Shown here in pieces: positions 21,886 through 46,985 of a stretch of 49,190 nt of DNA (its first letter is position 1; each line of letters begins with the position of its first letter). The notes under the pieces are model-generated. The model did no database searches. It was not told the DNA's origin and saw nothing but the letters and a program-made list of their open reading frames with translations. The stretch covers positions 1-49,190 of the forward strand of contig JAFGLR010000027.1 of NCBI GenBank assembly GCA_016927955.1, written 5' to 3'. A program made the position numbers and the translations under genes. This DNA is from Dehalococcoidales bacterium (lineage in GTDB: Bacteria > Chloroflexota > Dehalococcoidia > Dehalococcoidales > JAFGLR01).

Positions 21886-23166
21886 ATGAAAGTACAAAGA
21901 TGCAAAGGTTTCCGCGATTTATTGCCTATCGAGATGGAAAAATTTCGCCTTGTCGAGGCAGCGTTTCGCGATTGTTGTGCCGGGTGGGGCTACCAGGAGA
22001 TTAGAACCCCTACTCTGGAATACCTTTACTTGTTTACCTCAACCGGCACTCTGACACCGCGGCAGCTGAATAAAGCTTATTCTTTTTTGGATTGGGATGG
22101 CTGGAGCGGAGAGCGTGTCGTTTTACGTCCGGAAGGGACTATCCCGGCAGCTCGTTTTTATATTGATACTGCAAAAGATTCGGAACTGGCAAAATATTAC
22201 TACGTAGCCAACTCATTCGTTTTCGATGAGACGGGCAAGCAGAGCCGGGAGAGATGGCAGTGCGGTGTCGAGTTAATCGGAGTCAGTTCGCCCGTAGCCG
22301 ATGTGGAATTAATCACAATGGCTATAGAAGTATTGCGTAATCTAAATCTGGGGGATATTGAATTACAGCTATCTCATGCCGGTTTAATTCAGGCTTTAAT
22401 ATCCAGCCTTGGAATAGATAGGGAGAAGCAGACCGAAATAACCGACCGTATTTTAGATGGCGAAATAGAGGCTCTAACCGGTATTAAAACGGAAAACAAA
22501 GCGGTCAGCCGCAACATATCTGCTCTAATCAATATGCAGGGGAAATCGGGCAGTCTGTTAAGGAACCTGAAGTCTCTATATTCGCGAGAGCTTCCGGCAG
22601 TGGTAAAACCTTTAGACGATTTAATCAATATCGTTGATTTATTAGAAAGTTTGGGGATAAAGTATAAAATCGATATTGATTCCGGGCGTGGTTTTGAGTA
22701 TTATACCGGCTTTGTTTTCCATGTAACCGTGAAAGGCGAACGGGTCGGCGGCGGCGGCCGTTATGATGCTCTAATACCGTTAATGAGTCAGCAAGATATA
22801 CCGGCTTCAGGTTTTGCTCTTTATCTCGACCGGTTGATAAACATGGTCGAAATTAAATCAGATTCATCGATATTACCCGGTGTCGTAATTAAAGTATCGG
22901 AAAAAGACGGCGAATCGGTTAAAACCGGATTTAAATTGGCTGCTATTATTCATCAACATGGCGGCAAAGCTGAGATGGATATAGGGGCTAAACATCCGGT
23001 TGGTTTTAACTGGGTGGCCGATGTTACCGGAACTCCGGTAATTGTTCTAACCAATCATATAAACCGTAAAAAATATAAGGTAAATAGTGCTTCGGAAATG
23101 CTCGAGATACTGGAAAATGAAAAAACAAGTAAAAATCGCTCTACCAAAAGGTCGTCTTCTCGCTGA
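21886..23166 (+). CDS. hisZ: HisZ, ATP phosphoribosyltransferase regulatory subunit (HisRS paralogue)
   Basis: A 426-residue class II aminoacyl-tRNA synthetase-like protein. Motif 2 is seen in LRPEGTIPAARFY, and the histidine-binding motifs appear as RGFEYYTGFVF and GGGGRYD...GFALYLDRL. HisZ has no tRNA-charging activity and forms the histidine-sensing part of short-form HisG enzymes. The position directly before hisG, which it overlaps by 50 bases, and the altered motif 1 favour HisZ over a true histidyl-tRNA synthetase. Unlike many HisZ proteins it keeps a C-terminal region of about 90 residues resembling the anticodon-binding domain. Its last 16 codons lie inside hisG. Confidence 0.85.
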   Translation: MKVQRCKGFRDLLPIEMEKFRLVEAAFRDCCAGWGYQEIRTPTLEYLYLFTSTGTLTPRQLNKAYSFLDWDGWSGERVVLRPEGTIPAARFYIDTAKDSELAKYYYVANSFVFDETGKQSRERWQCGVELIGVSSPVADVELITMAIEVLRNLNLGDIELQLSHAGLIQALISSLGIDREKQTEITDRILDGEIEALTGIKTENKAVSRNISALINMQGKSGSLLRNLKSLYSRELPAVVKPLDDLINIVDLLESLGIKYKIDIDSGRGFEYYTGFVFHVTVKGERVGGGGRYDALIPLMSQQDIPASGFALYLDRLINMVEIKSDSSILPGVVIKVSEKDGESVKTGFKLAAIIHQHGGKAEMDIGAKHPVGFNWVADVTGTPVIVLTNHINRKKYKVNSASEMLEILENEKTSKNRSTKRSSSR

Positions 23167-24523
23167 AACCTCCCGGCTACTACAGGCAGCCGGTTGGGGG
23201 CTAAACGATTATACCAAAGACACTCGACTGTATCATCTCCAATCTACTACTTATCCGGACCTTATAGCTAAGGTATTTCAAGAGAGAGATATTCCCGTTC
23301 AGGTCGCTATCGGGAACTATGATTTAGGTATCTGCGGTCTGGATTGGGTAGAGGAACAACTGGTTAAATATCCCAGCAGCGCTTTGGTGAAAATCGAAGA
23401 CCTCGGTTATGGTCAGGGTATTCTCTACGTCGTAGCCGGACGATTTAATATGCTTAGCGATATACGGGGCAGTGCCGAGCACATCCGTATTGCCAGTGAA
23501 TATCCGAATTTGGCAGAGTCTTTCGCGGCACAGAACAGGTTGCGTAGCTTCAGCGTGTATCCGGTTTGGGGTGCGGCGGAAGCATATCCGCCGGAGAGTG
23601 CCGATTTAGCCATGGTTTCCGATGGTAAAATTGGGAGGGAATCTTCGGAAAGTTTATCTGTAATTGGTAAGGTATCGAATTTCAGTGCTTACTTAATAGC
23701 GAACCGTGAGAGTTGGGAAAACAGTGACCTCGGCCGTTTTCTATCAAGTCTGTTTGAGAATAGACCGGCGGCTAAACCATACCCCACTTTAGATATCGGT
23801 AAAACCAGCAATAGTAAGGTAAAATATGCTTTTCTTTCAAGTGATATTATACGCATCGCGATACCTGACGGACATCAGCAATCCCCAACCATTGATTTGT
23901 TACAAGCCGCGGGCATTCAATTAGAAGGTTATAACAGTTCCGGCGGCAATACGAGGCCGAAATCTAATCTTGAGGGTGTAGCATTTAAGGTTATCCGTCC
24001 TCAGGATATGCCATTACAGGTGGCTAACGGTAATTTCGACCTTGCAATCACCGGCAGGGACTGGCTCAGGAATCACTTATATCAATTTCCGACCAGTCCG
24101 GTGGAGGAGTTATTAGACTTAAAATCAGGTTGGGTTAGAATCGTGGCAGTTGTCAGTAATAACCTGCCTGTTGATGATACTAATACATTAAGAAGTTATT
24201 GCTCGGAAAACCCAAAGGTATTGCGTATAGCTTCCGAATATACTAATATAGCTGATAAGTATGCCCGGGACAATCATCTCGGTATGTACCGCATTATTCC
24301 TACCTGGGGGGCAACCGAAACATTTATCCCGGATGATGCCGATATGCTGATTGAAAATACCCAGACCGGTAAAACGCTGGCTCGGCATAATCTTAAGATA
24401 GTCGATACGCTTTTTGAATCGACAGGTTGTCTGATTGGTAATACGAGTATTCGGAAGAATAAAGTAAAAGCCGAACGAATTAACAGGGTAATCACGATGT
24501 TGAGGGGTGCCCTGGGAGCTTGA
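23117..24523 (+). CDS. hisG: ATP phosphoribosyltransferase with two tandem HisG catalytic units
   Basis: First enzyme of histidine synthesis, joining ATP and PRPP. The 468 residues are twice the short-form length (about 205-230). Unit A spans about 4-197 and unit B about 245-443. They align throughout: LPKGRL versus IPDGHQ; LLQAAG in both; IPVQVAIGNYDLGICGLDW versus MPLQVANGNFDLAITGRDW; RIASEYPN versus RIASEYTN; PVWGAAEAYPP versus PTWGATETFIP. Motifs are divided: A keeps the N-terminal LPKGRL but its PRPP loop has decayed (MVSDGKIGRE), whereas B keeps the loop ENTQTGKTL (413-421) but has lost PKGR. No long-form regulatory domain III is present; HisZ is next door. The start is ATG 23117; the frame open from 23087 has a less likely start. 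Confidence 0.88.
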   Translation: MKKQVKIALPKGRLLAETSRLLQAAGWGLNDYTKDTRLYHLQSTTYPDLIAKVFQERDIPVQVAIGNYDLGICGLDWVEEQLVKYPSSALVKIEDLGYGQGILYVVAGRFNMLSDIRGSAEHIRIASEYPNLAESFAAQNRLRSFSVYPVWGAAEAYPPESADLAMVSDGKIGRESSESLSVIGKVSNFSAYLIANRESWENSDLGRFLSSLFENRPAAKPYPTLDIGKTSNSKVKYAFLSSDIIRIAIPDGHQQSPTIDLLQAAGIQLEGYNSSGGNTRPKSNLEGVAFKVIRPQDMPLQVANGNFDLAITGRDWLRNHLYQFPTSPVEELLDLKSGWVRIVAVVSNNLPVDDTNTLRSYCSENPKVLRIASEYTNIADKYARDNHLGMYRIIPTWGATETFIPDDADMLIENTQTGKTLARHNLKIVDTLFESTGCLIGNTSIRKNKVKAERINRVITMLRGALGA

Positions 24524-24524
24524 A

Positions 24525-25853
24525 ATGGAAATAATTAAAGGTATGGCTGCCGCCCGGAAACGGTTGACTCGGCAGACTCAGACCGCATACGGAGAGGTTT
24601 CTCCGGCAGTAAAAAACCGACTGAAAGAAATATTTAAAAGAGAAATCAGCCCGGAACAAGCTGTTGCTCAAATACTCGAAGATGTTCGTACTAGAGGCGA
24701 TGTGGCACTGGTGGAATATACTTTGATAATTGATAAGGTTAAGTTAATATCATTGGAAGTAAGTAAAAGGCAGATTGCCGAGGCTTACAAAAAAGTTGAT
24801 AGCAAGCTGGTTGATGCTTTAAAGGTGGCAGCCGGTCGTATCCGCCGGTTCCATAAGGAACAAAAAGATAGTATCTGGCACGAGGTAGGCGGTAGGGAAT
24901 GGGGGCAAGTTATCCGCCCGCTTAACCGCGTTGGGTTTTATGTGCCCGGTGGTATGGCCAGTTATCCTTCGACGGTTTTAGCTACCGTTGTCCCGGCCAA
25001 AGTTGCCGGGGTAAAAGAAACCATTATAGTTACACCGCCTCAGCCTGGCGGTATTGTTCCGGTGAATACCATTGTGGCGGCCGATATTGCCGGAGCCGAC
25101 CGTATTTTTAATATAGGCGGGGCTCAAGCTGTTGCCGCCCTGGCTTATGGTACCAAAACCGTGCCTCGTGTCGATAAAATCTGCGGGCCGGGTAATGTAT
25201 TCGTAATGCTGGCGAAAAAACAGGTCTTCGGTACAGTCGCTATCGATGCTTTACAGGGACCTAGCGAGGTACTCGTTATTGCCGATGATACGGCTAATCC
25301 GAAATATTGTGCGGCCGACTTGCTGGCTCAGGCGGAACATGACACGCTGGCCCAATCGATATTTATTACTACCTCGGTTGGTATAGCGAATAAGGTTAAG
25401 AAAGAATTAGAAAAACAGTTGGCCGTTTTACCCCGGAAAAATATCACTTCGGAATCAATGGAAAAGAACGGGGCTATTATTGTTGTTACAGATGTCGATG
25501 AGGCAATAGAACTGGCTAATTTATTCGCTCCGGAGCACCTTGAGCTAATGGTTACCGATGCCAAGAAGTATGTGTCTAAGATTACTAATGCCGGTTGTAT
25601 ATTTGTTGGTGAGTATGCTACCGAACCTATCGGAGATTATGTAGCCGGACCGAGCCATGCTTTACCCACCGGCGGTACGGCTCGATTTAGTTCGCCATTG
25701 AATATTCTGGATTTTTTGAAAATTATAGATGTGGTTAAAGTAAATAAAACCGGTATCAAGAAATTGGGTAATATTGCAATGACGATAGCTCGTGCCGAAG
25801 GTTTGGAAGCCCATGCCAGGGCCGTTGAAAAACGGCTGGAGGACTTAAAATAA
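24525..25853 (+). CDS. hisD: Histidinol dehydrogenase
   Basis: Zinc enzyme that oxidises histidinol to histidine in two NAD+-dependent steps, last of the pathway. At 442 residues it has the usual length. The motifs are GPGNVFVMLAKKQV, DLLAQAEHDTLAQSI (glutamate/histidine of the active site), FAPEHLEL (catalytic E-H) and PTGGTARFSSPL. The start at 24525 lies one base after the hisG stop, with GGGAG ahead; the longer frame would overlap hisG. It ends by sharing one base with hisC. Confidence 0.95.
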   Translation: MEIIKGMAAARKRLTRQTQTAYGEVSPAVKNRLKEIFKREISPEQAVAQILEDVRTRGDVALVEYTLIIDKVKLISLEVSKRQIAEAYKKVDSKLVDALKVAAGRIRRFHKEQKDSIWHEVGGREWGQVIRPLNRVGFYVPGGMASYPSTVLATVVPAKVAGVKETIIVTPPQPGGIVPVNTIVAADIAGADRIFNIGGAQAVAALAYGTKTVPRVDKICGPGNVFVMLAKKQVFGTVAIDALQGPSEVLVIADDTANPKYCAADLLAQAEHDTLAQSIFITTSVGIANKVKKELEKQLAVLPRKNITSESMEKNGAIIVVTDVDEAIELANLFAPEHLELMVTDAKKYVSKITNAGCIFVGEYATEPIGDYVAGPSHALPTGGTARFSSPLNILDFLKIIDVVKVNKTGIKKLGNIAMTIARAEGLEAHARAVEKRLEDLK

Positions 25854-46220: not shown

Positions 46221-46985
46221 ATGACTGTGATAAAGATTATGCCATGCCTTGATATGAAAAACGGACGGGTTGTAAAAGGGGTCCATTTTGTTGATATAAA
46301 AGATGCCGGTGACCCGGTAGAAAATGCCGGATATTATGAAAGAGAAGGTGCCGATGAGCTGGCAATGCTTGATATTGCCGCGACCGTGGAAAATCGAAAA
46401 ACCAGACTGGAATGGGTAAGAAACGTATCTAAAGCGATAAGCATTCCACTAACAGTTGGAGGCGGTATTTCTACTCTTGAGGATATTGAACTGGTTCTGG
46501 CGGCGGGAGCGGATAAAGTGTCGATGAACAGTGCGGCGGTTAAAAATCCCGACCTGGTAAAACAGGCATCTAAAAAATATGGCAACGACAAGATTACCGT
46601 GGCTATCGATGCGAGAAGAAATGAAGCGATGCCATCCGGGTTTGAACTGGTGGTTAACGGCGGTACGACACCCGTCCTAAAGGATGCAGTGGTATGGGCA
46701 AAACAATGTCAGGAGTTCGGTGCCGGTATAATCTTGCCCACGAGTATGGACGGCGATGGAACACAAGCCGGTTATGATTTGGAATATACCAATGCAATTT
46801 CGAGTGCGGTTAAATTACCGGTGGTTGCATCCGGGGGAGCGGGTAAGCTGGAACATTTCTATGAGGGTGTGGTAAAAGGTGGAGCTCGAATATTACTGGC
46901 TGCTTCAGTATTCCATTTCCGCTTGTTGAGTATTAAACAGGTAAAAGAATACCTCAGGGATAAAGGAATACAGGTAAACTTATAG
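46221..46985 (+). CDS. hisF: Imidazole glycerol phosphate synthase cyclase subunit
   Basis: TIM-barrel enzyme that with the HisH glutaminase forms imidazole-glycerol phosphate and AICAR, linking histidine to purine synthesis. At 254 residues it has the usual length. The catalytic aspartates are in PCLDMKNGRVVKGVHF (D11 equivalent) and VAIDARR (D130 equivalent). The phosphate sites are GGGIST and ASGGAGK, and MDGDGTQAGYD matches the HisF signature and rules out HisA. It stands alone, 19 kb from the main his unit, behind a terminator; AAGGG lies upstream of the ATG. Confidence 0.93.
   Translation: MTVIKIMPCLDMKNGRVVKGVHFVDIKDAGDPVENAGYYEREGADELAMLDIAATVENRKTRLEWVRNVSKAISIPLTVGGGISTLEDIELVLAAGADKVSMNSAAVKNPDLVKQASKKYGNDKITVAIDARRNEAMPSGFELVVNGGTTPVLKDAVVWAKQCQEFGAGIILPTSMDGDGTQAGYDLEYTNAISSAVKLPVVASGGAGKLEHFYEGVVKGGARILLAASVFHFRLLSIKQVKEYLRDKGIQVNL

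Follow-up and report, generated by a model that had tools for sequence, protein, structure and literature searches.

Tandem HisG proteins of Dehalococcoidia with two diverged units: distribution, residue conservation and a proposed pseudo-heterodimeric mechanism

Described HisG forms and the tandem locus

Only two forms of HisG, long (292 aa) and short (214 aa), were distinguished in a 2021 survey (PMC8305728). The short form (HisGS) works with HisZ and is represented by the enzymes of Psychrobacter arcticus, Acinetobacter baumannii, Lactococcus lactis and Thermotoga maritima. In HisGS dimers each site draws on a subunit's own PRPP loop and Arg56 of the other subunit; in the Psychrobacter arcticus enzyme (PaHisG) this arginine reaches across the dimer to the PRPP/pyrophosphate of its partner (PMC9734150). 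Exchange R56A carries a 42-fold cost without HisZ, and R32A a 25-fold cost that is reduced to less than 4-fold with HisZ (PMC9734150). Arg73 contacts the γ-phosphate of ATP (PMC10795190).

The protein described here resembles HisGS in the two-domain HisG fold of each of its units, which lack domain III, in the adjoining hisZ gene, and in the PRPP-loop and ATP residues kept by its second unit (B). It differs in carrying two units on one chain of 468 aa, as against one catalytic unit in about 210–230 aa; moreover, its first unit (A) lacks the PRPP loop, and unit B reads PDGH(QQ) in place of PKGR. The long form (HisGL, with the PF08029 domain HisG_C) shares the reaction and the catalytic fold and is found in other bacteria of the same class, but the second half of the tandem chain is another HisG rather than a regulatory domain, and hisZ is present. 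Two paralogous modules on one chain, derived from a his gene by duplication and fusion, are also described for HisA/HisF with their duplicated half-barrels, in the accessible part of a review of his gene fusions (PMC1963479). There the halves complete one barrel, whereas the halves of the tandem HisG are whole catalytic subunits, one of them without a site. The same part of that review, whose survey includes Dehalococcoidetes, names seven fused his genes, hisG not among them (PMC1963479). No description of a tandem, double or fused HisG was found in the literature searched, from which subscription journals were mostly absent. Database entries for such proteins are probably named HisG, and what is undescribed seems to be the architecture and its asymmetry.

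The window, i.e. the whole stretch of DNA analysed (49,190 nucleotides, from a Dehalococcoidales bacterium), contains the following features.

21886..23166, + strand: hisZ, HisRS-like regulatory subunit; TIGR00443, 218 bits (cut-off 271.65)
23117..24523, + strand: tandem HisG (ATP phosphoribosyltransferase), units A and B, one chain of 468 aa
23117..23776, + strand: unit A, about residues 1–220; HisG fold with a degenerate PRPP loop; KGR and Arg56 equivalent kept
23144..23155, + strand: PKGR of unit A, residues 10–13; K in 102/118 and R in 84/118 A units
23225..23227, + strand: Arg37 of unit A, equivalent to PaHisG Arg56; R in 102/118 A and 2/118 B units
23615..23641, + strand: degenerate PRPP loop of unit A, VSDGKIGRE; TG.T in 0/118
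23777..23836, + strand: linker, residues 221–240; low model confidence (pLDDT about 57–66)
23840..24520, + strand: unit B, about residues 242–468; HisG fold, PRPP loop intact, proposed catalytic unit
23864..23881, + strand: PDGHQQ of unit B, residues 250–255, at the PKGR place; near-invariant in B units
23996..23998, + strand: Arg294 of unit B, equivalent to PaHisG Arg73 (ATP γ-phosphate); 118/118 B units
24353..24379, + strand: PRPP loop of unit B, ENTQTGKTL, residues 413–421; TG.T in 117/118
24525..25853, + strand: hisD, which follows directly 3′ of the tandem hisG in the his cluster

The tandem hisG is read as one uninterrupted frame from the ATG at 23117 to the stop codon ending at 24523; its start is overlapped over 50 bases by the 3′ end of hisZ, and it is followed by hisD, hisC and hisB in that order, the latter two named from sequence. 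The upstream frame (21886..23166) was assigned as hisZ and not as hisS, because it matches hisS weakly (213.5 bits) and a much stronger hisS (479 bits) lies elsewhere in the genome; its score with the hisZ model is itself under the cut-off of that model. A search of the whole 2.29 Mb assembly gave no second HisG besides the tandem chain. A hisI match and hisF were found in the same genome. A second hisF homologue lies in the window away from the his cluster (46221–46985, + strand; TIGR00735, 311 bits, above cut-off), after sigma-factor-like and anti-sigma-like genes; the stronger hisF (368.6 bits) is on another contig (C92), and the contamination estimate of the assembly is 6.34%.

Each half was scored alone. 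PF01634 (HisG; cut-off 25.5) matches unit A with 78.5 and unit B with 117.1 bits, and TIGR00070 (hisG; cut-off 75.75) with 109.6 and 123.5 bits, respectively. The double-length HisG claimed in the first-pass annotation is thus borne out: both halves pass both cut-offs within a single frame of 468 aa. The units are 28% identical to each other, and a Pfam scan of the chain showed no HisG_C domain (PF08029).

Models of the window chain and of a homologue 35% identical to it (L126) were predicted with AlphaFold2. pLDDT and pTM were 90.4 and 0.87 for the former, with a loose linker at residues 221–240, and 95.2 and 0.91 for the latter. Both models are two-lobed and, given the high pTM, the halves are predicted to be placed confidently relative to each other. 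Foldseek matches were HisG structures, each covering one half.

Distribution and origin of the two units

The tandem pattern was sought in 84,980 species genomes, through which the other phyla were covered. The scan returned 80 loci, all from Chloroflexota and mostly named Dehalococcoidia, with near full-length alignments and 49–61% identity; in every one of them phmmer hit a single open frame. In the order to which the window belongs, six complete genomes, each on one contig, hold one tandem frame of 468–478 aa apiece, in all cases with LPKGRL, LPDGHQQ and ENTETGGT, and in the complete genomes examined from this order the tandem is the only HisG found. Among 49 genomes of the order listed in the class sample, 47 have a HisG match, and each of these has two. 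The double length could in principle stem from two genes joined by an assembly or frame error; the single frame in 80 independent loci and in complete one-contig genomes excludes this.

A search for double-length HisG proteins, as proposed at first pass, yielded 118 tandem or split orthologues and places the architecture across the class Dehalococcoidia, the class being taken from the names of relatives. No tandem occurs in the 162 sampled Chloroflexota genomes outside Dehalococcoidia that have HisG. Three non-class Chloroflexota genomes with two HisG matches proved not to be tandem; their matches lie on separate contigs or are fragments. Two genomes of one family (G119, loci L091/L120; G266, loci L092/L129) carry a tandem and a single HisG each; in G119 the single protein includes HisG_C, the domain of the long form. 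The coexistence may be a replacement in progress. Every tandem locus with enough flanking sequence, the window included, has hisZ upstream. A fusion of hisZ to the tandem, considered for three loci with long frames (L126, L128 and L130), was rejected, as hisZ is a separate overlapping frame there.

A units, B units and ordinary HisG formed three groups in a tree of 125 units, with support of 100, 98 and 99, respectively. Because ordinary HisG is represented by archaeal, long and short forms, the root very probably lies among them; A and B would therefore be sister clades that stem from a single ancient duplication and were passed on jointly. Both fall outside the HisGS group, although one clade with HisGS is not rejected (AU p 0.08). 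Unit A is the faster-evolving half: mean identity is 0.47 for A and 0.575 for B, and the value for A is the smaller one in 99.4% of the 6903 pairs of chains.

Two lineages encode the units apart, in genes that overlap. A GTG start overlaps a TAG stop by 11 bases in one (L106, 1363–1373), and the junction reads TGATG in the other (L118, 2176–2180). The split genes keep the same division of motifs as the tandem chains, which fits a heterodimer. That unit A is a decaying remnant without a role is highly improbable: its faster evolution, the loss of its PRPP loop and the loss of Arg73 in most A units would agree with decay, but A is full-length with near-invariant residues in 118 chains, and in the two split lineages it persists as a separate gene. 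The initial proposal of specialisation rather than decay is therefore supported by clade-specific near-invariant motifs in 118 chains, an old split, and A and B occurring as separate genes.

Division of conserved residues between the units

Residues were counted in the 118 tandem or split orthologues and in 47 ordinary HisG proteins, with PaHisG numbering. No A unit (0/118) has the PRPP-loop signature TG.T, which is present in 117/118 B units and in all 47 ordinary HisG. As a stretch of the alignment the loop ranks 165th of 173 in A, i.e. among the most variable, whereas in ordinary HisG only one stretch is more conserved. Asp/Glu176 is found in no A unit and in all 118 B units, and Arg73 in 16 and 118, respectively; Glu163 and Asp94 are likewise present in all B units. 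These counts exclude, with the refinements given below, that both units keep or both lose all catalytic residues.

The arginine of KGR (Arg32) follows another pattern. It is present in 84/118 A units and 0/118 B units; as no more than 13 of the 47 ordinary HisG have it, B could lack it without necessarily losing activity. In a subclade of A units (L115–L130) KGR is gone and the site reads PAGD or PTGD, with unit B unchanged. At this place B units carry PDGHQQ (D 117, G 118, H 118, Q 112 and Q 114 of 118); PKGR has been exchanged for a new near-invariant PDGH(QQ) and is not merely missing. In the window the two sites read ALPKGRL (residues 8–14) and AIPDGHQQ (residues 248–255). The complementary loss of motifs described in the first-pass annotation is accordingly true in the window, and its PRPP-loop part is general; its PKGR part is not a general rule, given the subclade without the arginine, the low count in ordinary HisG and the replacement motif in B.

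The same residues bear on a composite site, in which the PKGR loop of A and the PRPP loop of B would act together in a dimer geometry unlike that of other HisG. A keeps the KGR lysine in 102 and the arginine in 84 of 118 units despite the loss of its own PRPP loop, and no B unit has that arginine. Such a site is nevertheless improbable: a whole A subclade reads PAGD/PTGD with the same B, Arg32 is rare in ordinary HisG, and B has its own near-invariant PDGH there. Between the two options first put forward, one productive site or a composite one, the data favour a single site in B over a site built from KGR of A and the PRPP loop of B.

The Arg56 equivalent is present in 102/118 A units, 2/118 B units and 36/47 ordinary HisG. 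Its apparent loss in B depends on the alignment chosen: an RRP motif of B lies 2–3 residues downstream of the Arg56 place in a direct A:B profile alignment and with MAFFT, and opposite Arg56-Lys57 in a profile alignment of B with ordinary HisG. Both PDGHQQ (23864–23881) and the RRP after it are near-invariant in B units and not in other HisG; in the window the RRP site reads TRP (about 23951–23959, + strand; unit B residues 279–281).

Unit A has near-invariant positions of its own (Y32, D58, Q62, Y68, E80, R141 and YPPE), and is therefore still under selection. These positions seemingly exceed the needs of a bare scaffold, as would be expected if A were a ligand sensor that exerts allosteric control over B by binding a nucleotide, PRATP or histidine in its emptied site. 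We regard this as unlikely, since A is the faster-evolving half and histidine control is already provided by HisZ in short-form enzymes. To the related version, in which A is a regulatory pseudoenzyme that holds another ligand in the emptied site and gates the one site of B jointly with HisZ, an equally low likelihood is given; if true, histidine synthesis would be under an asymmetric control with two inputs, of a kind unseen in other HisG.

Proposed mechanism and meaning

The reading we prefer, and consider probable from the pattern of conservation, is that of an obligate pseudo-heterodimer in which each chain has one productive site, located in B, completed by A and regulated by HisZ. Unit B would be catalytic, with its intact TG.T loop as the PRPP-binding and its Arg73 equivalent as the ATP-binding element. 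Unit A, proposed to be a non-productive helper and an obligate dimer partner, would be unable to bind PRPP normally; it would pack on B like the second subunit of a short-form HisG, offer a HisZ-binding surface, and lend a residue to the site of B. By homology, this residue is most likely Arg37, the equivalent of PaHisG Arg56, which crosses to the pyrophosphate, and the analogy makes a cross-half role for it plausible. As A keeps the donated arginine without the PRPP loop, and B seemingly shows the reverse, we infer one complete site per chain, in B.

The product of the neighbouring hisZ would activate the enzyme and bring histidine inhibition; both are expected as in HisGS because hisZ lies upstream of every tandem with room for it. 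An ordinary HisG4-HisZ4 octamer has four sites. For the tandem protein, the stoichiometry we infer is an assembly of two chains and four HisZ, with two productive sites.

The status of the tandem hisG as the sole HisG of its genome is counted in favour of the pseudo-heterodimer. Against it may be set the absence of the KGR arginine and of Cys115 from B, the 16 A units without the arginine proposed to be donated, and the alignment dependence of the Arg56 loss in B. On balance, the built-in pseudo-heterodimer acting with HisZ, as originally suggested, finds support at the level of sequence in 118 conserved chains, an old split, the linkage to hisZ and the two split-gene lineages.

A tandem catalytic/pseudocatalytic HisG would be a third architecture beside the two described forms. 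ATP phosphoribosyltransferase is a model for the tuning of catalysis by a partner, HisZ, and by a dimer interface. In symmetric HisG dimers the roles of binding PRPP and of reaching across to the partner are inseparable; the tandem protein would have them on separate halves, and half-of-sites activity and trans-acting residues would therefore be testable by mutations in a single half.
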